Origin: Planoprotostelium fungivorum
Lineage: Eukaryota; Evosea; Variosea; Cavosteliida; Cavosteliaceae
NCBI GenBank assembly: GCA_003024175.1
Contig: MDYQ01000005.1
Location: 186,001-250,000, forward strand
DNA: 64,000 bases
Reading direction: 5' to 3'
This document shows, piece after piece, positions 8,351 to 52,100 of the stretch. Each line of letters starts with the position of its first letter. Within the stretch, counting starts at the first letter, position 1. The notes under the pieces were generated by a model, which saw nothing but the letters and a program-made list of their open reading frames with translations, made no database searches and was not told where the DNA came from. The position numbers and the translations under genes are program-made.

Positions 8351-11300
8351 ATGGCTGATAATGAGGCCAAGGTCAGGTGCGTGATGTGAATGACATCACA
8401 TTCCGGTTAATGTGTGGAAGGGAGTTGAAGACCTCCCTGATGGAAGAGGTCAAAGACAAGGCGAACATCGAAAACGCTCGAAAACTGTTGCTGGCAGAGA
8501 ATAACGAGCTGAAAGCTCAACTATCGGCATTGAAAACTGAAGTCAGCAACGCTAAGATAGCGCTTCAAACGAAAACCAATGAGCTGTTGACAAAGGTAGA
8601 GGCGCAGAGTAAAGAGATTAGCATCCTCGATGTTCAAGACCGGAAGAGGTATGACAACGTCGCTGGCACGGCGACTGATCGATTTCAAGTAAGAAAACGA
8701 TAGCGGAACTGAAGAAGCAAGTTGGAGACCTCATCGACATTAAGAAGCGTGTCCAAGTGCAGCAGACAGAATACAATGACAAGGTCGAGAGTGACAACAA
8801 AGGTGATTTCCTCCTTCATCTCGAAATGAGTCACACGATTCTGATGCATTATGATAGAGAAGAACAATCTCGGTAATGACCTACGAAAACTGAAGGACGA
8901 TATGAATGCACTGAAACTCAAGCTCGAAGTCGAGACCAACGGAAGGAACAAGGCTGAGATGGATCTAGACAACCTCCAGCGACGCATTGCATCACAAGAG
9001 AGCGACATGAAGAATAAGACACTGGCTCTCGTGAAGGAGAATGCGTCTCTGATGGAGGTGAAGAAGAAGGGAGACTTGGCCATGGTGCAGATGCAGAAGC
9101 GATGTTCTGATCTAGAGATCGTCAATCGAACTCTGGCAATGCGAATGAAAGAAACGGTGAGTCTCCATCTCCACACCCCATTGACGATCGATCAGGAGAG
9201 GAAGATGCAGTCTCTATTTCGAGTTCAAAACCCGAGCTCACCCTCTAAAATGGCTCCGAAATCTATTCCAAAGAACGGAAAGAAGATCAGCGTGGGCGCA
9301 AAGAAGAAACTGGCGGGAGAAGAGGAAATAGACATCGGTGAATCCATTCTCGAGCTGGACTTTGAAACGGGAGAAGACATCGAAGCCATGTTGGACCAGA
9401 CGACGGTCCCGGACTCATCTGATGTTCTGGTGGTGGGGAGGGGGAAGTTACTGGACAGAGTGCTACTTCACCTGACTTCGAAAAAGTATAGAGGTGAGAT
9501 GAGAGGAGCTGATTGCGATTGACCGTCTGTAGCGGTCTGCGTGGAGCCTCTCGAGGCCGCAGAGATGTTGTCGAAGAAGAGATTCCTGAGTGTGATCTGC
9601 TCGGCGAAGGTTCTACCGGAGATATTGGCCTCGAACGACTCCAACTTTTTAGAGGTGATGAATGATGACGTCATCGCACTCAATTTCAAAAGGTCTTCAA
9701 GAAGAATAATGCGGGCGTTCCATTCATGACGTTCAGCATACAAGAGGGATTAGAGAACGTCGTGAAACAATTGAACAACACTCCAGAGGGTGTAACTTCT
9801 TACGATGTCCTCCGTCTGCACCTCACGGTGAGTTGGAGATACCAATAGAAAGTCAACTCATTCCGTTACAGGTCTTCTTGTATGGTATATGGATGAGCGA
9901 ACACACTCAGTCTTTGGCTTCCGAGTTTGAGAAAGAGAGAGAAGTCATCACAGCCACACGCAACGATGCCATTGCCGGCAAGATCGAGGAAGAATTGAGG
10001 ATCATCGAGTCGGTCAAGAAGAGGTTGGAGCACGAGAATTTTGAACTGAACAAGTTGGTTCGCAAGCTGATGACCGAAAAGGTAGTTTGACTTTGTCTTT
10101 CTCTCCTGATCTTCTCATCAGATGGCGAAAGAAAACGAATTGAATGGAGTGAAGAAGAACGTCAGCAGTCTCTGCTCGAAGATTTTCCTCCTCGAATTAG
10201 AGAACAGAAGCTCTCCGTCTCGTACTGCTCTGGACAACAGCGGCGACGGTGATCGAGACCCTGCCAACACCGAGTCCCCCCTTCAGACGTTGAATCAAGT
10301 CGTGACAGCTCTGCTGAGGGATGACCGCTCGCGAGACAACCGACCGTGGCTGAAATCCATTTTAGCCTCACTGGCCACTCAGATGAATCCGAACGAGGTA
10401 GTCATGGAATACCAGGGCCTCTTTGGAGATGTGAGTGAGAGAGGAGTGGAGGGAGCTGATGATGATCAGATCAATATGGACGCATTGACGCAGAGTTGGA
10501 TCTTATATGAATTTGATCGATCGAGGAGGGCGAGTGGAATGATCACGTCGTCAAGAGGGCCGAGGGAGATACAACCGCCTCCAGAGCCCTCAGACATCAA
10601 CTGCATCGAGAGGTGAGAAATCATCGCATTCTAATCCTCGATGAGATTGTTCCTGACTTCTCTTGCAGATATGATTTCAATGCCCACGCTCACACACACG
10701 AAGAATTGCAATTCCTCTACGTCCACATGCTGCAGAAATTGGGACTCGTCGACTTCTTCAAGATCTCTCTCAACCGTCTTTACTCCTTCCTGCGAGTCAT
10801 CTGTAAGAGTTACCGCACCAACCCTTACCACAACTTTTACCACGCAGTGGACGTATCACAAATGTGTTTCAAGATCATCTATAAGACGAAGGCGCAGGAT
10901 TATCTGACCGAACTCGATCAACTCAACCTCATGGTGGCCGCGATATGTCACGATATCGACCACCCCGGGCTCAACAACAACTTCCAGGTGAGAAATTCAG
11001 ATCATCTCCAAGAGATCGATCTGAATCGAATCGGTAGATCAACGATAGCTCACACCTGGCTCTATTATACAACGACATCTCTGTGTTAGAGAATCACCAC
11101 GCGTCGCGAGCCTTCTATATCTTGAATCATTCGGAGAGCAACATCTTATCTGCCTTGGACGAGAGCGTATATAGAGACTGCAGAAAAACCATCGTCAGCG
11201 CGATACTGGCTACGGATATGGCCAACCACTTTGAGCTCATGTCTAAATTCACGACGCACATCAACACCCAACCGTTCAACCAGAAGAATCCGGATTCACG

Positions 11301-12047
11301 ACAGCTCCTCATGAACATCATCTTGCACATGGCCGATATCTCTAACGTGACTAGACCCTTTGAATTATCAAAGACATGGTGTGACGCCATTCAAGAAGAG
11401 AACATGCGACAAGGTGAGATGAAGACATCTCCCGATGACGGAGATCTGATGTCATCAGGTGATCTGGAGAAAGAGAAAGACTTGCTCATCAGTCCTTACA
11501 TGGACCGAAACAATATGGACCAACCGAAGATGACCCTCGGATTCATCGACTACATGGTGAACCCCATGTTCACGAGCCTGAAGAAAGTCATCCCAGAAGT
11601 AGACGTTGTCGTCGAACAGCTTCACAGGAACAGAGCCACGTGGGTCGAACGCTCCGAAGCACCCGTCATCACAGCCGAATCGGTGATCATCTCACGAACA
11701 TCATTCATCGTGTGATCTGATGATGTCTTTAGGTGATGGAGGGTTTGAAGAAGAATCCGGAATTAGAAGATGGATTCGAGCCATTGCCGTCCATCCCCGC
11801 TCGGATAGGGAGATCGAGAGCTTTTTCTGCCTCTGCAGGAGAGCTAGAGAAGGAGGCGAATGCGCACATCACGACCAGTAGTCAGAGTCTACCTATGCCT
11901 GGAAAGACGAGAAACAGAGGTGAGATTTAGAACTGAAGTTCACGACGACGCCAGCGATGATGCTGACGTCGATCTTTAGAACGTGTGGAAACATCGAGAG
12001 AGGGGACGAAGAGGAAGAGTGGACTGCCGATCATCGCCAAGGGTTGA
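8351..12047 (+). CDS. Coiled-coil 3',5'-cyclic nucleotide phosphodiesterase (class I)
   Basis: About 17 exons and roughly 970 residues. The first half is a long coiled coil (for example ENARKLLLAENNELKAQLSA and EELRIIESVKKRLEHENFEL) interrupted by a basic and then an acidic segment. The second half is a complete PDEase_I catalytic domain: NPYHNFYHAVDVSQ, the metal signature HDIDHPGLNNNF, LYNDISVLENHHAS, HMADISN and FIDYMVNPMF. These supply the His/Asp residues that bind the two metals. The start gives MADNEAKVR before the first intron. The tail after the catalytic domain is basic. No transmembrane segment or cyclic-nucleotide-binding/GAF domain is visible, so it is probably cytosolic and tethered through its coiled coil. 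cAMP is the likely substrate, but specificity cannot be read here. Confidence 0.9.
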
Positions 12048-12424
12048 GCGGTGTGATCATGTGTGGTAATGTACAGAAGTGGATGGAAGAGAATCGAAGC
12101 TTGAGGCGATGGCAACGCTGTTCGCAATGAAACATACGTGTATCAGACGACTTTGTCTCTTCCATTTCTACGTGGTTGTGGAGAAGAGGGTGTGACTTCA
12201 ACAGAGCGTGATACCTAACGACGGTCGCAAAGCCTTACGGTGTGAGGTGTTTCAAAAAATCCCCTGAATTCACCCTGCAACTCGTAAAAACATTCATCTC
12301 TTCTTCGAAAGAGCCCTTTTCACGAGAAATGCACGAGCGCTGCCGCACGAATCGGAGATGTTGACGTGTGGATGTGCCCCACGACCTATCAGAAGGTGTA
12401 GGTGATATGCAAATCACTTGAAAG
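12048..12424. other. Intergenic region before the giant gene
   Basis: 377 bp between the phosphodiesterase stop and the next start on the same strand. It must hold the 3' end of one gene and the promoter of the next. No motif, repeat or RNA gene was recognised. Confidence 0.45.
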
Positions 12425-15400
12425 ATGCGAGCTCACCTCCGGCTGATCCTCTTGATTCTCATCGTCTGTCCCTCGGTCAGATGTGATGCACCTCCCGGTG
12501 TAGACGACCCAATTGGAGATCTGATAGGCGCGGCTGAATTTGGTGAGTGATGATGTGATGTTCCAAAAGTTGATCGCATGTAGGATATAATGCTTACGGT
12601 ATCCTGACTGGTCCCGGCGACGCAAAGACAAAGGCTAAGAATCTCCTCTTTGGTGATTGAAGTGTTAAATGTGAAAACATGCTAATCGTTGACCAGCTGC
12701 CGTGGGTATAGAAGAGATCCAGATTCCCCAAGCAGACCCCACCTTACGTAAATCTCATTCTAACGTCCGATCCATCCAATAACATCATTAGTTCTCAGTC
12801 TCACCGCGATTGACTCCAGCACGGTTCAAGTGACCATTCAACGTGGCGCACAGAACTGCGATGTCCTCGGCGCCGGCTTCAACTCTTGGTCGGGTCTCAC
12901 CCGATCAGGCCAAGCCATCGATTGCAGCGCGCAGAACATGAGAGATCGCAATCTGAGATCCTTTCGCTGCAAATTGAAACTACCCAGTCTGGCTCTCATC
13001 GATTCCGTATCCATCGTGGAGACGTGTTCTACCTCGACGTACAATTCTCGCAGCGCTTACTACATGCAAGTTCCTTGGACGAACGGTGGTATGTTGACGA
13101 CGGCCGCTTATTTCATAGGAGACAGTCAGACTATCGTTGTCGCCTGGTCCTCACCCCAACAACTCTGCACGAACACGCGTCTCAACGACGCGAAGACGTA
13201 CCTACAGGTGAGACGGTGAGAAGTTTTACTGCTGAGTGGTCCTCAGTTTCAAAAGTGGGAGGTTTATTATTGGGTTGGGTGAGCCATTCATCAGCTGAGA
13301 GGAGACTGACATCTTGTCAGATCGAATCGTCTCACGGCTTCTTGCGATTTCGCTGCGGAGAACAAGAGGGGAACCACCTGTTACAACATTCCTCAACAGA
13401 CCGCAGGGAGAACCACCCAGATCGACACCCAGCTATTCTGCAAGGTGAAATCTTCGTCATCATCTGATCACGAGCACCTTAACGTCTCCGATCACATCGT
13501 GACATCATCTGACGATCGTCACCTGATCTCACAATCTGAACCATAAAACCAGGACGCCAGCAATAACCAATACACCGTAGCCGCTCCTGGAATCTTTGCA
13601 GCCTCCTCCGTCAGCACTCCCAAGAGTCAGTAGATATCTCCGTCTCCATTCTAACTCATCGCAGTTGCCTCCGTTACCTTCTCGGACTACATTTCTTTGA
13701 GTCTCACCGGGCTGACGGTCCGTTGCTCGGACAAGGTGGCCGGAGCAAACAATTACTTGTACACCGAGATACAGAGTGGCGCGGGCGATTGGAATCAAAC
13801 ACCAGTTCGCAGTATTTTGGGTAACCCGCAGACGATATCGGTTTCGAAGGAGATTCTGAAGAAGAACACGACCAACATTCGAGTCAGGCAGGATTGTTAT
13901 ATCACCGGCCTCACCCTGCAGCAACCCGTCTCTGATGTCGTCGCTCTCCCGCAATTCATCGATCTGGCTTCCCCCGTCGGTGAGTCGTGAAGCGGGAGAT
14001 TCAAATTTCAAATCTCGAGTTGACCGCGACAGTTTCGATCGATACGGTCTCATCGAATTGGATCGTCATCCGCTGGAACATCAGTGGAACTTGCACGTCT
14101 ATCTACAATCGTCTCACCTTCGATCGATTTCTAGTCACCGTGCAAGGTGGATCCATCACCTCCCAGTCCTGCTCACCCCTCCCCGGATCTTCTGATTTCT
14201 TAAATGAAAGAACGAACGCTGCCAATTGTACCGGACTCGTAGTCAATACCTTCTACACGTTCATCGTGGCTCAGACGTGCAGTTTCTCTCAATTCAACGT
14301 CAGGGGCTACAACTTTGCTGCCACTCAGATTCCAAGTCTGACGCCAGCATCGAGTGAGAAGAGTGACATCGCATGTCGACTCATCGAATCAGTTGTCTCG
14401 GCGACATTGACTAGAGGAAACATCGTCCTCAGTTATCGATCAGACAGGGGATGCCAGTTCTACGGTAGCTCTACGGCAAATTACAATGTGTTCGCCAGAC
14501 AGATCAGTGGAGAATCCAAGTTGTCGTGCGTCAGTGTCGGCGGCACTCTCAGCTGTTCAGCAGCAACACTGACGGATAGTTCTTTCAATTTGATCATCAG
14601 CGAGGTCTGCACGGACACTCAATTGATTCCGGTTCGTTCTGCTCCCGTGAATATTTCGATTCCAACTTATCAAGAAGCCACGAAACGTGAGAGAATCATC
14701 GAACTATGTCAACTGATTCACTGCAGTGATTGCTGGTGTATCTGGTTCTATCGTTCTGATGACTTGGACTCCTCCTGTATTGAACAAGAGAGCCGAAGGT
14801 GGCTCTTCCTTCCGCAGATATCAAGTATGACGTATCTACACCACCACTGTCGTGACGTGAACAGGTACAATTGGTCCTCGGTGGTGGAGCTTTTCAAGAT
14901 CTAGACTGCGGTAATTTGAGTGACATCACCATCACTTCGGTGGGTGATACGTCTTCTCATCTCTTCTGACGAATCGTTCAGGCCAATTGCAGTCTTCCCA
15001 ACACGTTCTTCAGCTATCTGACTGCTCCACAATTTAGCATCTGTGTCAAGAGCATCACAGACGTCACGGCTTCGAATTCGAAGGGCTTGAATGCGATAAC
15101 TTTCAACGTGACCATTCCTCCACCACCATCTTGTGAGCTGAAACCTTCTCTCCTCCCATTGATCTTCGATTGCAGTTTCGGTGGATCTCACGCAAGACAT
15201 CAACATCAGATTGAACGGAAGCTCTTGTACCACCGTTCCAAGCCTGACTACGAATCGTTACGTCCTTCAGACGTGGCAGAAGGGCAGCTGGGTGGATGTC
15301 AACTTCTTCGTCAAAGGGGACACCATCTTGATACCCCCAATGGATCTCACATCCATACGTATTTCAGAAATATGCAGCAATACCGTATTCAATACCGAGT

Positions 15401-18400
15401 TCACCACATTCAATTTCAGCGTCGCCTATCCCACGGCTCCCACACGTGATTGAGGACGTAAATCGATGGCACTAACGTGAAGTACAGTGACGCACGCGTT
15501 GACTTCCAATGGGGTGGACGTAATGTACGCAGGTGGTACGAGAGATTGCAACAGTTCTTTCACCGGAGTTTATTTTCTGAGATACGACGTGGAAGTCCTA
15601 GGAGCCGATGGTATCACGTGGAGCATCTGTGGGACAACTACCGACAGTTCCGCCACTTTCTCCTGCAGTGTCACGGGCTACGTATCTTCCCGCATCACTC
15701 AAGTTTGCTCTTACGCTCCATTCAGCGTGACATCAATGGGCCACGGTAGCGTCAACGATCTCAAAGGTCTTCCTTTCAAATTCATTGATATCTCACATCT
15801 TGTAGTTTCTTCGGTATCCCTCGGCACAGGTTACGACATCATCGTTTCGTTTACTGCGGCAACGACCAGCTGTACCAATTATACGGGTATTCAAGTCGTC
15901 GTGGGAGGAGGAGATACAAAGTTGTCCACAAACTCTACCTTGATTTACACTCTATCTGATGTGGACGTCACAAATCTGAATTCTCAGGGAAATCTGATCT
16001 TATCCATCACGTGCGGAGGTATCAGGCAGAACCCCGACGTAACGTACGCTTTTTTAGCTCCCGTTAAGACTTCGACCCCTCAGCGTGAGTTCCCAGTGGA
16101 AACTATCCTACTGAAGCTCCACAGTCTCACCCTTCAGCTCCACTTCCGCCTCCCTCTCGATGAACATCTCGACCATCACTCAAGATTGCGCTGCGAGCCA
16201 ATCGGTCGGCCTCGGCTTCGATGTTCTCATCTACATCGGTAACGTCTCGTTTGCGGGAGCTTGCTCCGTACAATTCGGGCAGATCGTTTGTATTTCATTG
16301 AGCCCCAGCAATGCATACAAGGTCATGGTCAGAACACTCTGCCGTTCACTTTTGGTCACTTCAGATTACGCCACCATCACCATGTCGACAAAAAATAGTA
16401 CCGGTATCCCAGGTGACCGTTCCTCGGAACACCTCCGTCCTGAGAAATTTCCCAGGAAAGACTTTGTACTCCAACGCCAACGTTGTCAAGAGCACGTACG
16501 ACAACGTGGAGACCTGCAGTTACAACGCTTGGCCGTTCTCCTTCTCCCCGAATTACTCCACTTGGAGCACCTATTACATCCCGTTCGATAGTGATGACGT
16601 CATCTACGTGAGATCTTCATCATCGTGTCATCATCGTGAAGACTGAACGTTCGTCAGGATGCTTACTGGGTGTGGAGAAATACGGCCGGGGCCAATGCCA
16701 ATAACATCGGTTCGGGTAGTCGTGTGAATTTATCTTGTACACTGGTGAGGAAAGTCGTGAGGATAGAAGATGACTCTGTACAGGATTTTTACATGTACAA
16801 TTTGGACAAGAGCACATCACCCAACGGTTGTGGACATCCATTGGACGGCAATTGGGCGAGCTCACACGGTGTCACTTCCGTGCAGGTGATATCTCTTCGA
16901 ATTCTAAGATTCACGCGAAATTTCAGATTCCGTTCCAAACAAATGGAACTTACGACCTGGAATACAGAGTCTCCATCCTCGATGCCATCAACGCTTACCG
17001 TGAGAGATTCCGACGAATTTTCCACTCATCTTGCTCAGGTAACCTGGGTTACACGCGTAATTACGCACTCGTGAGACAGACTTGTAACGGTGGTAACAGC
17101 GGTTACTTATCAACCGGTTACTCTCTCGTCTCCCTGCGCGGCTCCAGCAATGAATGCAAGATTCCCAACATCTGTCCGCAGGGTGACACTTGTTACGATC
17201 CCAATTACGACGTCAGCGGGGATGTGAAATGTACCACTCCCAACTACCTCTACGCTTACGCCACGACTTCTTCGCTGTACAACAATTGTTCGGACAATGC
17301 AGGTACGGTCACGTACGGCGGCCTCGCTTACGATTGCGCTTGGTACGCCGTCAACACTCTGGCGCGTCCGGTGGCCAACTTTTACCAGTGGAAAGGTTAT
17401 CAATTCAGCGCTATCAGCAGGGACCAAGGACTGCCCATCTGCGCTCAATACGCTTACAACAACAACGCTGTGTCGTGGTCACTTCATGACAGACCCCCCA
17501 ATTGGTTCTGCGAGGTGTACAATAACAAGTACGATCCACGAACTCTCATGTCACAAGTCAACGACACCGCTCTCCGTGGAGAATGGATCTACGTTCCCAG
17601 ATCTGTCCGTGAGACGAATCTGGGTCGCATCACGCCGGACTATTGGAGTTTCGATTATAATCTGCCGGATTTCCTGACTCAGAAGAATCTCGTGGTAAGT
17701 GACATTGGAGCATCCTTCATCATCTTGATCGGTGCTGAACGGATACAGAGGGCAGAGTTGGCCATGAGCTTAAATCCGGTGGTGAATTATTCTCTCGGTT
17801 CCATCGATGGTGGTAGAGCTATCTATATCACACCAGGCCTGTGGAATATATCTTCGAGTGAGTGGTGGAAATGTGCGGAACTCGGTTGAGTTTTTCAGGC
17901 GTCGTGGACAGATCTTCTGCCTACTCAGACATGTCCAATCGTTACACGAGAGGTGTCGTAGTGCCACAAGGCTTGAGCTCGACGAACAATTCAGTGGCTC
18001 CATTTCTGGCCAGTTCAGGTACGCATCGGCTTCATCTCTCACACATATACAATTCGATTCTCGTTCATCCACAAGAATGAGACATCTTCTCTCGTTTCTG
18101 ACTCGTTGTAGATTACCTACCGGTCATACGTCTGTGGTGGTCTTACGATGATTGCATCACCAACCCCTGCCTCACCGGTTATCAATGTAAAGACAACAAC
18201 CTCACCCTCCACAATGTCTACGACTGTCTGCCACCCGTCGATCCGTCCATCACCAACTTGACTTCCACTTATTCGTCGGATGATAACAGCGCGACGCTCT
18301 CCTGGAAAGTCACGAGTGACTGCTCCGCTTCGTTTTCAAACTTTTCTTCGTACTCTGCACGATGGAACGCGGCCGGTGGAGTGCCACAGAATCTCACTTG

Positions 18401-21400
18401 CGATGATTTTGGGGAGGGGACGACCAGTGTGAACTGCTCCACTGTGGGCATCCCTATTGGACAACGTGTCACGGTTTCATTACAGTTGATCTGCTCGAAT
18501 GGCAGGATCTCTGTCCTCCAGAATGCAGACGTGTACGTGTTTCTGAAGGCGAAAGGTAATGATATCAGTCGAATACGGTGAACTGATGGATTCCAGATGA
18601 ATGTCTCACGTTAGGATGCGAAAATCGTACACTCTGTGTCGAACCAGATCTGTACACATCCGGCGATGCGTATTGTACGTCTAAACCTCCCACGATATCT
18701 TCTGCCATCTTTGGTAACCCGGGGTACCTCTTGTTGAACACCTCGACGGGAGACGATTCAGCCTGTTCCAAGTAAGCTTTCCTCATTTGTTTTCATCTGA
18801 AGAGTTCAGATACATTCGCGGGGTAAACACTTCTCTCGTTGTACAGACCTCAGCGAGGAATGATAATAACGCTGCATGGGAGAGCTTGATCTGCAATTCA
18901 AACGGTCTCACCCTCAACTGCTTCATCACCGTACAAGTTGACCAAGACATCTTCTACCGTGTTGCAGCCAGATGCACCGATCCAGCTCTGGATTCTTCCT
19001 TCTCGGGTAGAACGATCCATATCTTCGTGGAGACAGATTCTGATGATTACGATAGACATCGGAAGTGTCAAATTGACACGATCTGACACTCTTCCCGCCA
19101 ATTCGACTCTTCTGGATGCAGTTGGAGACGATTTCGCGACGATCGTCATGGATACCTCCTACGTGACTCACTTGTGCTCCGACTTGGCATCCGGTGGCGG
19201 CTCCTCTCAGTGGTCCGTCACATTGTCCGCACAGATATTATCTGGGAATGAGACTTGTATGATCTCTCCTTCTTCGGCGGGAACATACATCATCCACTGT
19301 ACGAACCTGAGCTACAACACTGCTTATGGCTTCTCGGTTCGACAGAACTGCCTTTGGAGCCAAGCTGACTCCATCGCTTCTCCTCTCTTCTACCATTCCA
19401 CTACGGGTGATCTTCATTTTTTCATTATCGACTGACATTCATCAGAGAACGAATGTCTTCACAACACTTGTCCGGCGGGATCTGTATGCATCGATCCCAG
19501 CTTCAACATGACTGGAGACCAATTCTGCACCAGCGTATTGAGAGCTTCTCTGAGGTTGACCCAATTAGGATTCGTACGCATCGATGCGACTGATTACGTG
19601 CTGTCGTCACAGTGCGGTGAAAAATCGTACCAAGTGCAGAGGTCGTTCAATCACGACGGTGGATGGAGTAACATCACCTTCATCAGCCGTACGGCGGGCG
19701 TACTGTACGCACCTTCCGATGACATCCCGCCGAACACTCCGGTTAGCTACCGGGTCAGATTGGGATGCTCAAATGACGTGGCCAGCTCACCCTGGGTCGA
19801 CCTCGATATTCATCTATCTACAACGGACCCACTATCAGGTGACACTCCTTTCGTCATTCATAAGACATCTCATGTGAGCAGCGGTGAGCGTACAACCCGC
19901 AGTTACCACGGCAACGGTCAGTTGGATGACTAGTTCCAAGAGGAACGGAAGAGACTGTAGTGACACAGCGGGTGCCGTGTTCGTCGCATGGGAAGCTAAC
20001 GTGGAGCCGACTCTCTACAACGAGACGTGTGCCTCCGTCTCGGACGAGAATGTCACCAGCACGATCTGTGGTAACCTTCAGCCAGGCACTCACTACAACG
20101 TTTCTGTCTATCGTAGATGCTCCTTCGCCGCCATCAATTCTCTACCCGTAACAACAGACTTCTCCACCGGAGGTGAATGACTCGTTCACATTGCATAAGT
20201 CGAAAGAGATCTCACGCTTCACAGTGGATGAATGCTCATCGTTCAATTGTTCTGGGTCGACTTGTGTTGATCCCGACTTGTATGTCACTGGAGACGCCTA
20301 CTGTATTTCTAAGCCACCATCCGGTGGGATTTCTCTTGCGCCCTCCTTCTCATGTTCTACAGATCTGACCGCAGTCTGGGCCAGTGGTAATCCGAAGCAT
20401 TTCACCTTGTCATGGTTCCCGGAAGCAGGCTGTAATTCTTCTGCGGTCAACGGTGGTCAATCCCATCTTCAGTTCACGCTTCGCGATCTGTACAATTACT
20501 CCCGTACGATACGTTCCGTGTGTTCTGTGAACACTACTGGAGCCTCTTGCGTCATCGAGGAAGAGGCTTTCGCTTACGTGGCAGAAGTGAGGGACCTATG
20601 TGACGCAAGTGTACGTAGCTCTGCGGCCTCCGATCCTGCAGTAATCTATTACGTAAAGGGAATTCTACCCGGAATTTCGATCAACACCACCCGACCCACG
20701 GCAGACTCAGCGGTCGTCGAGTGAGAGGATCACCGTGGAGATCCAATTTGAACTGACGGTTGTAGATGGAGCGCGAACGATTCTGTGGTCTGTGCGGGAA
20801 GTGGAATCATCTTCCAGAGATACGTGGTCCAATTGTTTGATCCTTCTTCCAACTCCACCAACGCCACGTGCGACGATATTACCGACCAGACGGTACACAC
20901 GACCATTTGTCGTGGACTTGGCCGCGGTGATTATCAATTGTCCATGAGACAAGAATGCAGCGTCGATTTCGTCTCTACAACGAGCCAGATCGTCGGTCGT
21001 GTGGCCAGCTTACGTGAGTTATCTCTGAGAGACTTTATCATGAAGTTTTGACATCGAATCAGCTCGGTGCGACATAGACAACGGCCGCTGCTCCTTCCAA
21101 TGCAGAGAGATCGGAATCGCCACCGATTGTTATCACGTGCGTACATTACGTCGGCTTCCCATTGATTCTCCACCAGGACGAGTGCGCGAATCTCAATATC
21201 CCCGGATGTACGTGCGTCGATCCAGATCCTCACGTAGAGGGAGACGCTCGTTGTAATGCCACCACCTTGGACGATCTCTCTACCATTCCCAAGATCTGTA
21301 CGGTAACCGTGGCGAATTGCAGGGACGTGGCTCAGCTGAATGGAGCCAAACACACCAATTACACTCTACAGTTGATGGGAGCAGAAGAATACGTGGACCG

Positions 21401-22004
21401 TTCGATCTCCATCGTGTCGACGCACTACAACGAGGCATTTTTGGAGAACGTCACGATGAGTTTATCCGTGAGATCTCGCGTACAACTCGTGTTACGTATC
21501 GTTGCCATGGGTACCGGTGAGAATTTTCTCGAGATCTTCATCATCTCATCATCTCCCACAGTCAACGGAGTGAACCAAGAGATATCCCCCTTCACATTCG
21601 ATGAAGACAAGCCACTACAACTGGACATCTCGAAAGATTCGACGCAGCAACTGCTGAGCCTCAGGGACGTGGACTTGTACTACGTATCTTACAACAATAC
21701 CCTCGTGAAGGACTCCAACAGCTCTCCCAAATATCCCGCCATAGACGTTGACGACAAGATCCGGTTCTATATCGGCCACTTGACCACTTGGGTGGCCGTT
21801 CGCAACGAAGCCAACACGAACACGATGGCAGAGATGGTACCAACCGATCAGCAGGGAAGGTTGAGTTCTGGTGCCATAGCGGGAATCGTCATCGCCTGTG
21901 TAGTGGCAGCGATTGTCATCGTCGCGGCGGCCGTTTATGTTTATACGAAGACGAGAGGAAAAGGAGAAGATCTCACGAATTCCATTGAGCTCCAGGCACA
22001 ATAA
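12425..22004 (+). CDS. Giant type I membrane protein with Fn3-like repeats and six Cys modules
   Basis: A chain of roughly 40 short exons stays open from a signal peptide (MRAHLRLILLILIVCPSVRC) to a single C-terminal membrane span (IAGIVIACVVAAIVIVAAAV) and a 23-residue cytoplasmic tail, about 2,400-2,600 residues in all. The ectodomain is built of beta-rich repeats with Fn3-like strands (for example SATLSWKV, SAVVEW), many N-glycosylation sites and conserved Cys. A module of about 25 residues, C-x(4,5)-C-x(4,5)-C-x-[DE]-P-x(n)-GD-x-x-C, recurs at 17155-17232, 18153-18227 (diverged), 18602-18676, 19454-19528, 20233-20304 and 21183-21254. A different Cys-rich segment lies at 16.5-17.7 kb. An adhesion or recognition receptor is the natural reading but no named family was recognised. 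Individual splice joins are unverified, and the locus could be two genes. Confidence 0.7.
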
Positions 22005-24403: not shown

Positions 24404-24558
24404 AAGGACCGAACCAACAACCATCAATTTTGACAATAAACGAAACGAAATCACGAAAGTGAATGGTTTGTATGTTGTGCGATGTAGTACACGAGAATGT
24501 GATCATTCAAATCGAGCGAACATATTACAAATTGACATGAGACACGTTGGTTCTCACA

Positions 24559-24676
24559 GCTATGATCACACCTGGATGAAGACCCACGATCCCATGCCGA
24601 ACTCGTCAGGTAAGCAGCCGTGGGCGATGTCAGTACTGTGATGGGTGACCGTACGGGAAGCCATCGTATCGTAGCT
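24559..24676 (+). rRNA. 5S ribosomal RNA gene
   Basis: A 118-nt match to the eukaryotic 5S pattern. The 5' AGCTATGAT pairs with the 3' ATCGTAGCT to form helix I. The conserved CCCATGCCGAACTCG and the internal control region AAGCAGCCGTGGGCG follow at the expected spacing, then TGGGTGACCG. A run of T follows at once (24676-24680), the usual RNA polymerase III stop. A second near-identical copy is at 51785-51902. It lies singly between protein genes, not in a tandem array. Confidence 0.95.
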
Positions 24677-25178
24677 TTTTCTTCTCCTCTTCAGAGCTCC
24701 TGCGTAATGTCCTTTCACAAACGGTGCGTGAAGTCATCACCGCAGACGATCGTCGTCACATGCAGAAGGTGGATGGATTGATACCGCGCGTGGCTTGTCC
24801 AGTGAATCAAAGATGAGCTCACATGTTGAACCAACCGTTCTGCCACTCATGAATTGTATTCGTGGTGGATTGAGAGTTTTCAACGCACAAGGAATGCACA
24901 TTCAAACAGCAACATCACTCTGCTTGTGACGGCTCAACTCACGGAACTCACGCAGAAAATGACGGATAAGAACGAAGCTGTGATTGCAATTGGCATTCGG
25001 TTCGTTCACGTCGATGACGACGAGTTTTTATAGTTTATCTACAACGTTGTATATCGTTATTTAATTCTCCCGTTATCGCCAGAAAAATAGCTAAAGTTGT
25101 CCAAAAATCTTCTCATCACGGTAGAAAGGGTACAAAAAGGTTTCAGATGGCAAGCCGAGGTTATAGATGGTAAAAGAG
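24677..25178. other. Intergenic stretch between 5S and tRNA genes
   Basis: About 500 bp with no coding potential or RNA structure that I recognise. It contains the near-palindrome ATCTACAACGTTGTATAT at 25037-25054, one of the copies of the 10-mer described under findings. The tRNA terminator lies at its right edge. Confidence 0.5.
25172..25175 (-). terminator. RNA polymerase III T-run after tRNA-Asp
   Basis: On the minus strand the tRNA 3' end is followed by CTCTTTT. A run of four T is the usual Pol III termination signal. Confidence 0.7.
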
Positions 25179-25261
25179 CTCCCCGACCGGGAATTGAACC
25201 CGGGTCCCAAGCGATCTGCGTATATGACAGGCTTGTATACTCACCACTATACTATCGAGGA
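25179..25261 (-). tRNA. tRNA-Asp (GTC) with an 11-nt intron
   Basis: Minus strand. Acceptor TCCTCGA pairs with TCGGGGA (one G-T pair), with discriminator G at 25179. The D arm reads GTATAGTGGTGAGTAT. The T arm reads CCGGGTTCAATTCCCGG, an intact B box. The anticodon stem CAAGC/GCTTG encloses CTGTCA, giving anticodon GTC. Eleven extra bases (TATACGCAGAT) sit right after A37, the canonical position for nuclear tRNA introns. Removing them leaves a 72-nt tRNA that fits the Asp consensus. Intron removal would need the tRNA splicing endonuclease. Confidence 0.93.
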
Positions 25262-29446: not shown

Positions 29447-31424
29447 ATGAGCATCCAAAAGGGCACCATGCATCAACCAGACGAAGAAGAGACGGCGCAC
29501 CTGATACCATCTAAACCACCCCCATCGATTCGTTACTCTGCGGGAGGACATCGATTCATCGATGAAAATGATGATGGGATCCAGCACCACAGCAATGGAT
29601 CCTTCTTTGGAACCACATTCAACATCATGACGTGTGTGATTGGCTCTGGAATTCTTCTATTGCGTGAGTCGACCACCATCGGGAAGATCATAACCCGACG
29701 CCATTCCATCTGCTGACTCAGAGAAGCTTCCGCCTTCGAAGAATGTGGCGTAGCGCTTGCTGCTATTCTTCTCGCCGGTTTGACTCTGGTATCCATCTAT
29801 ACCATCAACCTTTTGATCAAATGCTCTGAGGTCTCAGGCTCAAAGACATATCAAGAGGTGTGTCATATATTTATTCTCTCTCCCCTCTTCTCACGTAACA
29901 TCAGGTAGCATTCACAGCATATGGTCTGCCGGGGACACGTCTGGCCAAGTTCTTCCTCTTCCTCAACTTGTTTGGCACTCTGTCAGCGTATTGCAAGATC
30001 ATGGGAGATCTTGCGTATCCTGTGGCTGAATATGCCCTGCATGATCATTGGTACACAGATGCAAGGACACTCTCGGCTGCTCTATTGGTCTTCATTGTAT
30101 TACCACTCGCTTTCTTCTCTAAGATCCATCAGGTGCACCATCGAATCCATCATCCTACGTTCTAAAATCGCACAGTTAGAGAAGACATCTATTCTCGCCA
30201 TCTTGTCCGTTCTCGTCGTCCTCTTTCTTGTCGTCTTCAGGTCATTTCGAATCATCCATCTTCATCTCACACAATCACAGGTCCATCCAGCATCTCGTTC
30301 ACAACGGAACGGGTTCCGTCCACATCTTCCGTTTCGAAAACATCAAAGGCATCGCGAGATCGGTCCCCCTCTTTGCATTCGCAGCTGGATGTCAGACGCA
30401 GATCATTCCCATCTTTAATGAGCTAAAACCTGCTCTCCGCGAGAGGAATGCCATCAAGCCCATCGTCTATCTCAGCAATGCGAATTGTTTCGCTGTTTAC
30501 GTCATCATTGCCGTCTTCGGTTACCTCCAATTCGGTGGTGAAACCTGTGACAACATCGTCAGCAATTATGCAGACAGCGACATCATCGCCATCATCGGCC
30601 GTGTGTCCATGGTGAGTCTGCATCCTCTATACTACCTCTCATCGATGACCATCGTGATGTCTAAAGATTCTCATCGTCTCCACAGGCGGCACACGTAGCT
30701 CTGGCTTTCCCTCTCCAATTGTGGCCCTGCAGAAACATTCTGGACAGCTTCTTCTTTGACCCCAACGACAATCGCTTCCAGACACTGCGACACACTGGAG
30801 AGACGATCTTCCTCTTGGTCTCCTCTTACGGATTGTCCATCACCACCAAAAAGATCGACGTCATCTTTGGTAATCATCATCATCCTGCTCTCATTTTGAA
30901 CATGGAACATCAGACAAATTTTTTACACCGAAAATGATTTTCAACTCTCATCTGATCTCATCATCAGGTTTCACGGGTGACATCACTACCATCGTCAACT
31001 TTGTCCTCCCCTGCCTCTTCTTCTTGAAGTTGNCACCAAAAAGATCGACGTCATCTTTGGTAATCATCATCATCCTGCTCTCATTTTGAACATGGAACAA
31101 CAGACAATTTTTTTACACCGAAAATGAATATATTAGCATGGGATTTTCAACTCTCATCTGATCTCATCATCAGGTTTCACGGGTGACATCACTACCATCG
31201 TCAACTTTGTCCTCCCCTGCCTCTTCTTCTTGAAGTTGGCCGAGCGCATCACCATCACGAAGAAGATCGCATGCTGGGCCGTCATCATCTTAGGTATCGC
31301 CGTCGGCCTCCTTTCGTGAGTCGAAGAGGTCAACAGATGCATGCTGACATGATGCAGTTTGGGCATCCAGATCTGGGATTTGGCTGACAAGCCAGATACG
31401 AAACCGTGTAAACCTTCCAATTGA
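29447..31424 (+). CDS. Amino acid/auxin permease family transporter (SLC38-like)
   Basis: About eight exons, roughly 470 residues. After a polar N-terminus (DEEETAHLIPSKPPP) comes the family entry helix FNIMTCVIGSGILLL, then about ten further hydrophobic segments, including FAAGCQTQIIPIFNEL and NCFAVYVIIAVFGYLQFGG. These patterns fit AAAP transporters, which carry neutral amino acids with Na+ or H+ across the plasma or lysosomal membrane. The start at 29447 precedes the acidic N-tail. The last exons are disturbed by an assembly duplication around the N at 31033; read past it, the protein ends TKPCKPSN. AATAAA at 31485-31490 is a plausible polyadenylation signal. Confidence 0.85.
30844..31238 (+). 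repeat. Near-identical tandem copies flanking an N (assembly artefact)
   Basis: 30844-31032 and 31034-31238 are almost the same sequence: the end of one exon, an intron and the start of the next exon of the transporter. They differ by point changes and by a short insertion in the intron (TATATTAGCATG-like) in the second copy. The single N at 31033 separates them. This fits two haplotypes laid end to end at a scaffold join better than a real duplication. Confidence 0.8.
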
Positions 31425-31493: not shown

Positions 31494-33262
31494 TTATTGC
31501 ATGATGGTGTTGCCCAACCGAGGTGACGATACCGCCGGCTCTGTGACGACAAAGAGGTCGTGAAGGGGAACGTGGTCCGTTCGCATGCGATGGATAGACA
31601 AGCCGATAGACTTCTCCACTTCTTCTCTTCTTCCCACCGACAACTGAAATTCGTCTCAACAAGACACCATCACTCGGATGAGCTCACCTCTTTCGCTCTG
31701 GACTCCAACTTGTCTGCGTCACACACGATGAACTTGCAATCACCTCCCATGGTCGAATGACAGAAGGATTCCGCGCATGCGAGGTCCGTGTGAAGAGCTG
31801 AAGAGCACCATCCTCCCAAATAGCCGGCTGTGAAAGCGCAGGTCTGTTGTGACGGATGACATTCTTTATCCACGCACTCGCAACCGTTTTCGAGCCGAAA
31901 GAGAAGAGTCTTACGATTGCTCTGTCATCACGTCAATCACCATCGAAAGAGGACGATCGTTGAGGATTGTGATGGAGGTGCGATCGATGTGATGAGGTCT
32001 CCACTACCTTGATGACGGTATCAGACATGATAGAGAGTCGTCCGAATCCCCTCTCAGTGAAGACATTTGATAATTCCATCAGTCTCGATCTCAGATCCGA
32101 TGTCTCTTGATCGTCATATCTCTTCCCGTCGATGAGTCCTGCATGGCGACCCATCTCCGTCAGATACTTTGCCGCAAGAAGAGCATGAGAGGTCTCGTTC
32201 TATAAAGATATCAGAATAACATCATGCAAGGATGCTCCTCACCTTTCCCGCCTTCTCAAAGTATGCGTAAAACTCGGAGAAAACTCCACACCGTACAGCC
32301 CACTGACGCTGTACATCCTTGCCGAATCGAATGCTTCCGTCACTGCTGTCGATGACGGGAGACCTCTCTCGATGATCGGTCGTGGGCTCCATCATGGGGA
32401 CGATCTTCTCCTCTGTTGGACTGTTGTTCCTGGAATTCGACCGGAAGAATCTCAAGCTCGCTTTGAACCTCCAACCGGAAGCATCGACTGCATCATCGAT
32501 CAGCACAGAAGGAGACATCCAATGGATTACCTCTCTTTGTCTCCGCAGGAAGCTTACCGGGCTTGATCAATTGATATCGACTCGCTTTGATCGGCTCACA
32601 CTGTTTCAAGTGAGCAGGCGTAAAATTTGAAAATCTTCTCACAGTGGATCCGCCGTTCAAACTGTCCTGCGAGATCACCTTGTCGATCTGCTCTTGACTT
32701 CCCACGACAAACTGACAGATCGTGGAGCTACATCTCCGCTCCCACGCCGTCACGTCACTGTCTGTGAAGAATGAGTGGGAACTCTTCCCAACGGGACGAC
32801 TCACTCGTCGATCGCGATCTCCAACCTGCGGCGTAACCGGCAGACAATAGACAAGCTCTTTCTCTCTCCTCTCCAATCTGAGTCAATTCGAACCGTTGCT
32901 CCTCGTTGTTATTTCCGGCTGTCAATATTGAGAATTTTGAGGACAAGACGAGAGGCTCACTCCACGTCCTTATTTTGCCTAAACCATGTCGAAAGCTTTG
33001 GATCTGCCAGCGGTTCTGTCGATCGGATGGAATCTGGATAAGAGTGAGTTGTCAATCATCACAAGGTGAATCGTACTCCTCTTGCGATGTGATGACAATC
33101 GCTGGAACCTGCCACGTAAGCGAAAGTGTAGAGGAAACTCCTGAACAGATCGGCGTTAGATGTGATATCGTCGGACGATTTCTGTTCATTGATGGTGCCG
33201 TCGACGAAACCAAATGAAGAGAGACTGTCTGCGTTCAATAGCGTGTGATTCAACATATTCAC
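31494..33262 (-). CDS. Tandem V4R-domain protein (probably 3' part of RasGEF gene)
   Basis: About eight minus-strand exons, about 480 residues, ending GNTIMQ at 31494. Two V4R (4-vinyl-reductase) sensor domains can be read. Domain 1 runs from FRHGLGKIRTWSEP through ACLLSAGYAAGW to ERRCSSTICQFVVGS. Domain 2 runs from GFGRLSIMSD through TCAFTAGYLGGWCSSAL to AESFCHSTMGGDCKFIV. Both keep the Cys-x(6)-G-x(2)-G core and the E-x(2)-C-x(5,7)-C-x-F end of the family. V4R domains bind small molecules or metals in bacterial regulators such as XylR-type activators. The first exon has an ATG at 33256, but the upstream RasGEF frame can be spliced straight into it by a 111-base intron (33373-33263). I therefore favour one fused gene. 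Ligand and function are unknown. Confidence 0.65.
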
Positions 33263-35283
33263 CTCAGTAGGATGACCCTCTCTCCATTCATCTTACAACT
33301 TGCATCGACCGGGTTGGTGACGATCTTTGTGAGCTGTCCTGTGTCATTCGTGCCTTGATGTCTCTCTCATCACCTCCATCTTCGGTTCGAATGTGATGTT
33401 CCTCTTGCTCGTCGTGTGATGAAGAGTCAGGGATCGCGGAGAACTCGTCAGGTGATTGCTCGATGATCGACTGACGAGCGCCGGTCTCTCCCTCATGGTG
33501 TGTAATCTATCTTGAAACATCTCGTCAATCGAGTGGGAATCATTTCAAACTCACCAGAGTGATCCATCTTGGGTGATGCCATCTCAGTGATGGTGCTGCT
33601 TCGAGCGCTGGGAGACTTTCTAAAGATGCTTCCTGCCCTGCTCCTTCCCTCGATCTGCATCATAAGATCAGATGTCCATTTCATTTCATTCATTTCAAAC
33701 GATCTTACCAGATTCTCAGATTCTCCCCAGGCGGCCGCCTCCGCTTTCACCGATAGACGATAGATGTCGTCGTCTTTCTCGACCAACGTCAGCCCGCTTA
33801 AGAACTCCGTCAGCTGCTCCTGTCGGATCATCAGAGGTCAGATCTCTTCCTCTCTTCTCACGGGAAAGGCCGGCAATCTGAACGCCTCCTTCTGGTAAGA
33901 CATCATGACGTCACATCGGTCGCTGATGCTGCGGCATACGGAGAAGTCGATCTTGCCGTTCGAATCGATGGAAGGATTCTCTGCTACGAACGTGAGGTCT
34001 CTGAGAAAGACCCCCACGTAAGGTAAGAGTGGTCCCTTGTGCTCGGCAAGTGCCGCGTTGTAGTTGCGAAAATTTCCCACGGGTAGGAACAAGGCGTCGA
34101 GTTTGTTGAAGTCGTCCGAGTGGCGCTCGTCTAATCTGGACCACAGTCCTCTCAGTCTCTGAATGCCGAAGCTGTTGAGACCAGACACGATGGCCAGGGT
34201 GGCGTCGAAATTTCCGATTTTCGTCAGACGCTGAGGAGGTGAGTTGCATCGTCTTGTCCGATCGATCACCTTTGCGATGCGGATCATCTTCTGTAGGACT
34301 GCACGTTGTAGAGCACCTTCTTTTTGTATGAGAATCTCATTGATGACCCAATGGCTGATGCGATTGAACATCTCGATCATGTGATCGAGAGGTGATTCAG
34401 GTGTGACCTCTTGGCCAGAAGAGTCCTTCGACTGTTCCGATTAGTTGAGATGTACAGCTGATGACGTTACCTTCCCGACCCAATGGATCTTTCGCAACAG
34501 ATCGACTGGTCTGATCTGGATGAAGCACGTCCACTGCTGTAACGTGAGAGCTCCGGCGATATCGTCACAGGTAACCCGCACGAAGTTTGGTAATAGAGTG
34601 GGCTCGGCGTTGGGAGATTCTAAGAGGGTACAGAATGCCTCATTCTGTCGAGATCATTAGACACCATGTCGTGGGTGACGGTGATGACGGGTCCTCACAT
34701 CGGCATCGTATGGTGCGATGAGGAGCGAGTTACTGTCCGGAGGCAATATCTCCATCTGTCTACCGTTGAAGCTAGAGAAGGGGGAGCGGAAAGACTGAGT
34801 GCGTCAGGTGGCATGAAGTCTTGGGTCGCCCACCTTCAGCACCAGGAGCTTGACTTCGTTCTTGTGAGGCAACCGATCCACTATGCTGATGATCTTCCCT
34901 CGAATCTTTGCAGATATGTCTTCGTTGAAAAGTCTTATCCATGCGATCATGAATTCAGATAAACTATAAATGTCAATAAATGTATTTCGCATTCACATCA
35001 GGAGCTCACTGCTCGACGATCGCTGTCTGTTTCTTCAGTTGAACGACACTATTTTGGGTCAAGGAAAGAACGTAGATTATGACGGAGGGAGGATACAGTG
35101 CATACCACAGCTGGAACAGATCGTCTGATGTGATGAACCTTCTGTATGTTAAGAGGAGCGCCCGCGTGTCCGCTGTTGACATCAGTTTCCCTCCATCTCT
35201 GTGATCTCACATCCATCTCTCGATGCGCTGCACATCACATTCTTTGCCAGAGTAAGCATGTTTTCGTATTTCGTGTCGTCCAT
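33263..35283 (-). CDS. Ras guanine nucleotide exchange factor (RasGEF_N + CDC25)
   Basis: Minus strand from ATG 35283. The short N-terminal region leads into a RasGEF_N segment (LLLTYRRFITSDDLFQL, then FMIAWIRLFNEDISAKIRG). The CDC25 catalytic domain follows: TLQQWTCFIQIRPVDLLRK, MIEMFNRISHWVINEIL, the LTKIGNFDATLAIVSGLNS core with FDA/N-S residues that grip Ras switch regions, RLRGLW, GPLLPYVGVFLRDLTF. It catalyses GDP release from Ras-type GTPases, typically in chemotaxis, macropinocytosis and growth control in amoebae. After the catalytic domain a Ser-rich, basic linker (RSRAGSIFRKSPSARSS) appears. The 3' end is uncertain: it either stops near 33259-33290, or splices on into the V4R exons, which start within a few bases. 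RasGEF identity is firm; its extent is not. Confidence 0.82.
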
Positions 35284-35715: not shown

Positions 35716-37064
35716 TCACTGCGGCCGATACACAGCGAGACCGTACTGCCCCGGATAAGTCGGAGGGTAAGGGTAAGGATAAGGATAGGCTTGCATCATC
35801 TCTGTCGAAAAGGAGGGTATCGGTGGATGCAGGTTGGTCGGTGATTGCGAAGTCGGTGTAGGTGATCCGGATGACTCATCATACGATCGGATGTTGTGCT
35901 GCTGTTCCTCGTGCCTCCGCAATCTGGCCCTCTCACGAAAGGATCTCCCACACACCGAGCAGCTGTGAGGCAATATGTTATCGTGCGTTCTCTGCAGACG
36001 TTCAGATCGTCACCATGACGATGTTCCGTCTCTCGATCACCTCGTGGGCGTAAAGTTCGGACAGACGAATGAAGGCCTTCTGGCAGTTGGTGTGGGTGCA
36101 TTTGTGTGGAAATTCTCCCTTGTGAATCTTTCGGTGGATGTTGAGATCGGTTCTGGTGGAGTATGACTTTGTACAACCGGGCTCCTCACAGTGAAACCGC
36201 TCGCGGGTGGCATCATGCGTGCGTTCGTGTTTCTGATGAGGTTCAGATGATGTTCAGATGATGAGAAAGTAGAGAGTACCTTTCGATTGGAGGAATCGGT
36301 GAAGCTCTTCGAGCAGTTGGGATGACCGCAGAAATATCTTTTCTTTGGTTTCTGCTCCTGTGAGGTTGTTGTATTATCGGTTTCGTCCAATTTGGTCAGG
36401 AAGGGCATCTGACCGACGTGATTGGATGAAGACAGATGCTTGGCCAGGTTCCTCAGTGTTCCAAATTGTGAATCACAGTTACCCCACACACAGGAGAATG
36501 TGGTCTGAGATGATATCAGAGTAGATTGAGATGATAATTGGAATGCACCTTCTGCCGCCGACCCGTCTGGCGTGGCTGGTGTTCGGATAGATGAGAAGAT
36601 ACATGAGTGGCGAGGCCCGTTCGAGTGTGGAATGTCTGTTCGCATGACCCCCAACGGCACGAAAAAGAACTGTCGTCCAAATCTTCTTTCGGCTTCACCT
36701 TCCAATTCCAATTGATTTCCTCTGTCCCCTCTTTAGAATGCGAATGGCTGATGGTGTATGATTTATACCGGACATGGCACACGGTTCGGGATCTGTACTT
36801 AACACGGAGTAGATGGACATCTTCTGTCTCTTGCTCTTCCTCCCACGAAAGAAATCCTGTCGAGGGTCAGCAAAGGATTCTCTTAAAAAATGCTCGGACC
36901 CGCATATTCATGCCGGCTCTAACAACGAAGACGAATGAAGCTCTCACACGCTGCCGCGTCGGGTCTCTCTCTTCTTGACTAGAATGGTCGCTCTGTGCTT
37001 CAGAGTCACTGGATAGAGTGGCATCTATGAGAGATGCGATGGAACCTGACGGATCATTATCCAT
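35716..37064 (-). CDS. C2H2 zinc-finger protein with about six fingers
   Basis: About six minus-strand exons; start ATG 37064 (MDNDPSGSIASLIDATLSSD). An acidic/Ser N-terminus is followed by a basic stretch (FFRGRKSKRQKM), then the fingers: FSCRWGSCEQTFHTRTGLATH, FSCVWGNCDSQF...AKHL, YFCGHPNCSKSF...KHERTH, FHCEEPGCTKSYSTRTDL, HKCTHTNCQKAFIRLSELYAH and HSCSVCGRSFRERARLRRH. The CxxxxC spacing and TFIIIA/ZIC-like order suggest nucleic-acid binding. The C-tail is a Pro/Tyr repeat (AYPYPYPYPPTYPG). It is a likely nuclear transcription factor; I cannot say whether it is TFIIIA itself. Introns fall between fingers, which supports the model. Confidence 0.85.
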
Positions 37065-51585: not shown

Positions 51586-51784
51586 GAAGAACGAGAGGAG
51601 AAGCAGTCCGACACGGCTGCACGAACCATTTTGTATCGAAGACATAAACCGAAAATTGTATTTAACGTCGAATCTCTCCGTGTCTCTTCCACTCGCGTGT
51701 GATGATCATCGCGACATGATGATGCATCACGAGCTCAACTTGTCTTTGAGATGAATGGTATGGATCGTCACAGTCACACAGACA

Positions 51785-51902
51785 GCTACGATCACACCTG
51801 GATGAACACCCACGATCCCATGCCGAACTCGTCAGGTAAGCAGCCGTGGGCGATGTCAGTACTGTGATGGGTGACCGCACGGGAAGCCATCGTATCGTAG
51901 CT
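51785..51902 (+). rRNA. 5S ribosomal RNA gene, second copy
   Basis: 118 nt, matching the copy at 24559-24676 except for about three substitutions (CTACG for CTATG near the 5' end, GAACACCC for GAAGACCC, GCACGGG for GTACGGG). The change near the 5' end restores a Watson-Crick pair in helix I. Internal control region and T-run terminator are present. Flanking sequence is unrelated to the first copy, so it is a dispersed single gene. Confidence 0.95.
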
Positions 51903-52100
51903 TTTTCTTTTTGTGTAGAGCCGTGAGACCGATGTCTTCTCACACGAGATGATGAGTGGCGATGCTGATCATCTTCGATGATGATGAAACAGATCGACCT
52001 CCGTCTCTCAAGAAGAGATCGAGAAACCAAGCTTTAGACGTATTCGTTTATTCTTTATCTCTATTAAGAGGTTGCTCTTCCAAATTCTTCTCTGCCTCTC

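Follow-up and report, generated by a model that had tools for sequence, protein, structure and literature searches.

Regulation of a GEF by sensor domains in the same chain is known from EPAC and, probably, from GbpC and GbpD, where cyclic-nucleotide domains exert the control (PMC1273635). V4R/TRAPPC3 domains, which pair through the helices at their N termini, surround a hydrophobic cavity and in many cases bind zinc (PMC10933270); in DmpR, phenol binding releases the attached effector from its restraint by a sensor dimer (PMC7264223). The V4R-domain titles and abstracts that we searched concerned either prokaryotes or the link to Bet3, and within them V4R domains outside Bet3/TRAPPC3 were described solely from bacteria and archaea. 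Our literature search returned no publication combining a V4R domain and a RasGEF.

Here, we describe a locus that is best read as a RasGEF joined to a pair of V4R domains, and which, by analogy with the systems above, we file as a putative sensor-regulated RasGEF with a sensor type unreported in the literature searched. Few RasGEFs in this lineage have known inputs, and a tandem V4R on a RasGEF would directly link small-molecule, metal or redox sensing to Ras signalling, a link that is testable.

Genomic setting and organization of the locus

The window (the whole 64,000-nucleotide stretch of DNA analysed) is a gene-dense eukaryotic contig with a GC content of ~49% and abundant short GT-AG introns, whose lengths have a mode of 38-46 bp in the higher-scoring predicted genes (144 introns) and a median of 44 bp over 158 introns. 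Genes were predicted ab initio by a gene finder without V4R knowledge, and the scores of the two proposed junction-region introns and of the fusion came from a model trained with this gene left out. Among the neighbouring predictions are a cyclic-nucleotide phosphodiesterase, an F-BAR/SH3 protein, an actin-related protein and a C2H2 zinc-finger gene. The last of these (35716-36900, minus strand), which lies upstream of the RasGEF and has somewhat TFIIIA-like finger spacing, was missed by the gene finder. At 8351-22004 (plus strand), the gene finder ran a PDEase_I protein (E = 8e-86) together with a Cys-rich repeat protein that is very long and has a transmembrane-like segment at its end; this prediction probably merges two or more genes. 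Full-length 5S rRNA genes (Rfam) at 24558-24677 and 51784-51903, both on the plus strand, lie ~27 kb apart and are thus dispersed here, with no array, and a tRNA-Met (CAT) gene (25178-25261, minus strand) lies ~0.5 kb from one of them.

The locus itself spans about 35283-31494 of the minus strand and encodes a CDC25-type RasGEF of canonical form and, after it, two complete, diverged V4R domains (V4R1 and V4R2):

35106-35283, minus strand: 5' end of the gene; candidate starts are ATG 35283 (gene finder) or ATG 35182 (MSTADTRALLLTYRRFITSDDLFQLW, RasGEF_N-like)
35048-35010, 34963-34834, 34755-34699 and 34644-34471, minus strand: linker exons from RasGEF_N to RasGEF, with GT-AG introns of 39-78 bp
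34431-34270 and 34230-33862 (within 33862-34431), minus strand: CDC25/RasGEF catalytic core (PF00617, E = 7e-41)
33819-33709, 33654-33555 and 33510-33374, minus strand: exons of the C-terminal RasGEF and Ser-rich linker (gene finder)
33334-33373, minus strand: proposed junction intron of 40 bp, GTGATG...GGACAG, phase 0, donor 5.49, acceptor 4.26 (gene finder)
33263-33333, minus strand: exon of the V4R1 N-terminal β-hairpin, encoding LTKIVTNPVDASCKMNGERVILL
33225-33262, minus strand: intron of 38 bp, GTGAAT...GAACGCAGACAG, donor 5.41, acceptor 2.94
33224-33077, 33033-32961, 32918-32805 and 32761-32531, minus strand: exons of the V4R1 remainder (profile matches); 32960-32919 may be coding
32487-32243, 32199-32008, 31921-31688 and 31643-31494, minus strand: exons of a linker and V4R2, stop TAA (MsvR, E = 2e-5)

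The CDC25-type RasGEF recognized in the first-pass annotation of this stretch is borne out as an intact catalytic domain on the minus strand. After splicing by hand, it matched PF00617 over the full profile length (1-181 of 181) with E = 7e-41 and 140.5 bits, against a curated cut-off of 23.1; its beginning lies in exon 34644-34471. The closest PDB relatives of the domain are RalGPS1, Epac2, RasGRP and SOS, so that the substrate of the predicted GEF may be Ras, Rap or Ral. RasGEF_N (PF00618), N-terminal to the catalytic domain, was sub-threshold (19.2 bits against a cut-off of 28.3), its best E value of 0.0014 being obtained with the 57-bp stop-free segment 35105-35049 kept as coding. This segment and the 42-bp segment 32960-32919, both on the minus strand, are intron-like, but they are stop-free multiples of three. 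Since keeping them gives a better RasGEF_N match and one continuous V4R1 match, respectively, both may be coding or optionally retained.

Profile and motif evidence for the V4R domains

Two V4R domains had been proposed in the first-pass annotation, and both are found downstream of the RasGEF, sharing its strand and in a frame compatible with it; the matches are significant, although both score under the Pfam curated cut-off. Against PF02830 (cut-off 31 bits), V4R1 reached 18.0-22.9 bits, with E values from 9e-5 (full V4R part) to 3e-3, and V4R2 reached 10.8-13.4 bits (E = 0.085 using its exon alone). Among the Pfam families anticipated earlier, PF00617 was thereby recovered above its cut-off, while PF00618 and both PF02830 matches were sub-threshold. 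V4R1 also matched XylR_N (E = 1.7e-4, under the curated cut-off) and, weakly, the NCBIfam profile MobR. The best curated match of V4R2 was NCBIfam MsvR (E = 2e-5), over the C-terminal V4R part of MsvR, and the two domains resemble each other (BLASTP E = 8e-8).

We further used a custom bacterial XylR/MopR sensor profile comprising nine XylR-type plasmid-encoded sensors, MopR and one Rhodococcus V4R. V4R1 alone matched this profile with E = 2e-10 at Z = 20,000, which supports its homology despite the missed Pfam cut-off; with the in-frame segment 32960-32919 kept, it gave one full-length match (3.6e-10). On the fused protein, the profile aligned in three collinear stretches corresponding to the V4R1 hairpin and helices, the V4R1 zinc half, and V4R2, the last being domain 3 of the match (i-E = 0.0039).

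A phmmer search of the V4R part against the PDB yielded no meaningful match. By tblastn against plasmids, V4R2 found no V4R match and V4R1 only Rhodococcus 4-vinyl reductases (E 0.2-0.4), and the viral contigs searched contained no relative. Tandem-like V4R matches on the same strand, ~0.6-0.8 kb apart, occurred in 3 of the 149 genomes scanned from the phylum of a Rhodococcus (loci L007 and L016 in genome G080, L008 and L018 in G149, L009 and L017 in G127), and may be a prokaryotic parallel to the V4R tandem described here.

Both V4R domains carry the sequence pattern of a MopR/DmpR-type Cys-Glu-Cys-Cys zinc tetrad. The reference positions C0, E23, C26 and C34 come from the MopR (5kbe) and DmpR (6iy8) chain sequences in the PDB. 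The published zinc ligands of DmpR are Cys151, Cys177, Cys185 and a Glu numbered 172 (PMC7264223); as Glu172 would fall at position 21, which misfits the DmpR chain sequence, position 23 was adopted. V4R2 reproduces the reference pattern exactly (C-x22-E-x2-C-x7-C in TCAFTAGYLGGW...AESFCHSTMGGDCKF; positions 0, 23, 26, 34), and V4R1 differs from it by a 3-residue deletion (C-x22-E-x2-C-x4-C in ACLLSAGYAAGW...WERRCSSTICQF; positions 0, 23, 26, 31). Candidate counterparts of MopR His106 and Trp134, the phenol-hydroxyl anchors, occur in one splice version only of V4R1; none was recognized in V4R2.

Proposed splice structure of the RasGEF-V4R junction

The first-pass annotation had joined RasGEF and V4R exons through a single 111-bp intron (33373-33263). 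Its donor at 33373 is a good one (score 5.49), but its acceptor TCCTACTGAG scores -0.32, under the median of 0.64 for all same-strand AGs. Such an intron would be long against the 44-bp median and would remove the V4R1 hairpin exon 33333-33263, and the first 38 bases of the V4R exon as drawn there (33262-33225) read as intron. A pair of alternative introns of 35 and 34 bp was rejected, as it uses the same weak acceptor and puts the hairpin exon in the wrong reading frame.

In the structure proposed here, a 40-bp GT-AG intron of typical length separates the hairpin exon from the open RasGEF frame, with which the exon is in phase. V4R1 thereby has an N-terminal β-hairpin leading to an R-M-x-L strand, as in XylR_N/V4R sensor domains, and the hairpin aligns gap-free with its bacterial equivalents, AERLRFNPADGRIWLDDRRMVLIH and LDKIVFDAQHGQIWFDENRMLLMH among them. 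With a position matrix derived from nine bacterial hairpins, none of them from the window, exon 33333-33263 ranked first among the 54,486 stop-free 24-mers in six frames of the window (20.5 bits, next 10.5); ITFEPKMEVNMLNHTLL, another candidate for the V4R hairpin, was discarded at a matrix score of -11.6 or lower versus +20.5. The sensor-profile score was 40.4 bits with the hairpin exon, versus 36.1 with an ATG start and 35.4 with the 111-bp-intron junction.

No in-frame ATG lies between the upstream stops and V4R1 β1. The β1 half of the hairpin, located upstream of the sole in-frame ATG, has a score equalled at 55 of 76,434 sites (per-site p ~7e-4), and this unusual score indicates that coding runs upstream of any ATG usable by the V4R exon. 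With the first strand of V4R1 inside the supposed intron and without its own start codon, the fusion is better supported than was recognized earlier: RasGEF-V4R-V4R in one gene is retained, and the splice originally drawn for it is replaced.

Ab initio parsing, in which no homology was used, gave a P(fused), summed over parses, of 0.73-0.95 across gene-density settings, with the hairpin exon required or not, and the best parse was fused in every case. The linker exon 33510-33374, which ends ...NITFEPKME, has a weak codon log-odds (-2.9), yet the highest among its three frames. When donor 33373 was forbidden, the best parse was still fused, joining 33555 to 33338 in phase and skipping this linker exon. 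Because the exon-skipping parse was near-best, and in that run ranked first outright, the fusion is more secure than its precise splicing. Collectively, these results make it very probable that the RasGEF and the V4R pair constitute a single fused gene.

Predicted regulation and competing explanations

The predicted product of ~940 residues, 937 in our model, would comprise, in order, a weak RasGEF_N, the CDC25 catalytic domain, a Ser-rich linker, V4R1, a linker and V4R2. V4R1 and V4R2 would dimerise within one molecule (or between molecules), like V4R/TRAPPC3 domains, and would hold zinc structurally. Occupancy of the V4R1 pocket by a small ligand, hydrophobic or aromatic, or cysteine oxidation or metal loss, would then change the seating of the V4R pair on the CDC25 domain, or the positioning of that domain, and nucleotide exchange on a Ras/Rap/Ral-family GTPase would go up or down. 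V4R-ligand gating is a reasonable extrapolation from the V4R regulators of bacteria and from other RasGEFs under ligand control. The proposal as a whole, a ~940-residue GEF fused to a V4R pair and regulated by ligand, redox state or metal, appears to us somewhat probable; for the gating step itself, through ligand, zinc or redox state, the analogy suggests a real possibility that falls short of probable.

More tentatively, and on the doubtful side, an amoebozoan may have acquired a prokaryote-type V4R sensor of small molecules, metal or redox state and joined it to a CDC25 GEF, such that an environmental or prey-derived aromatic or hydrophobic compound, or redox state, sets Ras-family activity. 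If so, a single protein would set this activity directly, with no receptor or second messenger involved.

A real fusion might also have a different purpose, the V4R pair serving as a TRAPPC3/Bet3-like dimerisation or membrane-targeting platform that positions the GEF constitutively, with no small-molecule sensing. V4R is homologous to Bet3/TRAPPC3, which belongs to a Rab GEF complex in which the subunits use this fold for pairing and bind palmitate (PMC2253512, PMC10933270), and tandem V4Rs would supply a ready-made pair. However, the nearest profiles are those of the bacterial and archaeal regulators XylR_N, MobR and MsvR, not TRAPP, and the zinc tetrad is kept in both V4Rs, whereas a hydrogen bond replaces the zinc site in mouse TRAPPC3 (PMC10933270). 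We consider such a platform unlikely, if not strikingly so.

A role of the V4R pair specifically as a thiol/redox sensor, like methanogen MsvR, is in our judgement distinctly unlikely. MsvR is the best curated match of V4R2 (E = 2e-5), the C-x25-C-x7-C spacing of V4R2 equals that of the redox-relevant cysteines C206, C232 and C240 of MaMsvR, and more cysteines lie near the V4R2 motif; but the identical spacing forms the structural zinc site of phenol sensors, so that spacing alone is no indicator of redox sensing.

It is very unlikely that the locus comprises two adjacent genes, a RasGEF ending at ~33344 and a double-V4R protein whose start is 33379 or slightly upstream, with its promoter in the RasGEF 3' exons. 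The linker exon does contain in-frame ATGs (ATG-GAG at 33379 is one), the unspliced RasGEF frame stops at 33346-33344, and the ab initio model assigns 5-27% to a split. Yet V4R1 coding starts at 33338 or 33333, only 5-10 bp beyond that stop, whereas other same-strand predicted neighbours in the window are spaced by at least about 260 bp. This recomputed gap narrows the ~0-35 bp given by the first-pass annotation and upholds its point that no usable intergenic space exists. Moreover, V4R1 β1 lacks its own ATG, and the junction has neither terminator-like AT richness (AT content 0.51, coding-like, versus about 0.6 in 3' flanks) nor an AATAAA-like polyadenylation hexamer. Such signals follow 8 of the 14 predicted gene ends, and at the V4R end of this gene the stop overlaps AATAAA (CAATAAATG).

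An assembly chimera of two unrelated loci is extremely improbable: one N and duplicated segments of 94-97 bp, ~460 bp downstream of the gene stop, reveal a local assembly problem in the contig, but this defect lies outside the gene, and the junction is continuous, free of N, coding in phase and flanked by matched splice sites.

The duplicated segments (30844-31238, plus strand) are direct repeats of 97 nt (100%) and 94 nt (98%), with spacings of 206 and 190, around the single N near 31033. The N and flanking repeats fall inside a predicted plus-strand membrane-protein gene, and the repeats have the look of an artefact, either of duplication in local assembly or of gap filling.

Comparison with known systems

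A single-gene RasGEF regulated by its V4R pair would, if true, be a bacterial-type sensor steering a eukaryotic growth-and-movement switch, and would offer a GEF with exchangeable input, by swapping in characterised V4R sensors. With the TRAPP RabGEF complex it shares a distantly homologous fold (TRAPPC3/Bet3) within a GEF assembly; TRAPP, however, is a Rab GEF that consists of several subunits and lacks a CDC25 domain, and the sequence here is nearer to prokaryotic V4R, with zinc ligands retained. MsvR, the methanogen V4R redox regulator, provides the best curated match of V4R2 and identical three-cysteine spacing, but the present locus has no HTH DNA-binding domain and carries a tandem V4R in an intron-bearing eukaryotic gene.

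The sigma54 activators XylR, DmpR, MopR and PoxR (XylR_N + V4R) share the N-terminal hairpin, the helices and the Cys-Glu-Cys-Cys site, and their sensor controls an attached effector, as proposed for the fusion. Their effector is an AAA+ transcription activator, whereas here it is a eukaryotic RasGEF, with a sensor that is C-terminal and duplicated and a His/Trp ligand dyad that is uncertain. The EPAC family and Dictyostelium GbpC/GbpD (RasGEFT/RasGEFU) resemble the locus in combining a CDC25 GEF and sensor domains in one chain, and in GbpD, a cGMP-binding Dictyostelium RasGEF, the cyclic-nucleotide domains lie C-terminal to the GEF (PMC1273635), as the V4Rs do here. The difference lies in the sensor, a cyclic-nucleotide-binding domain in those proteins and two tandem V4R folds in this one.
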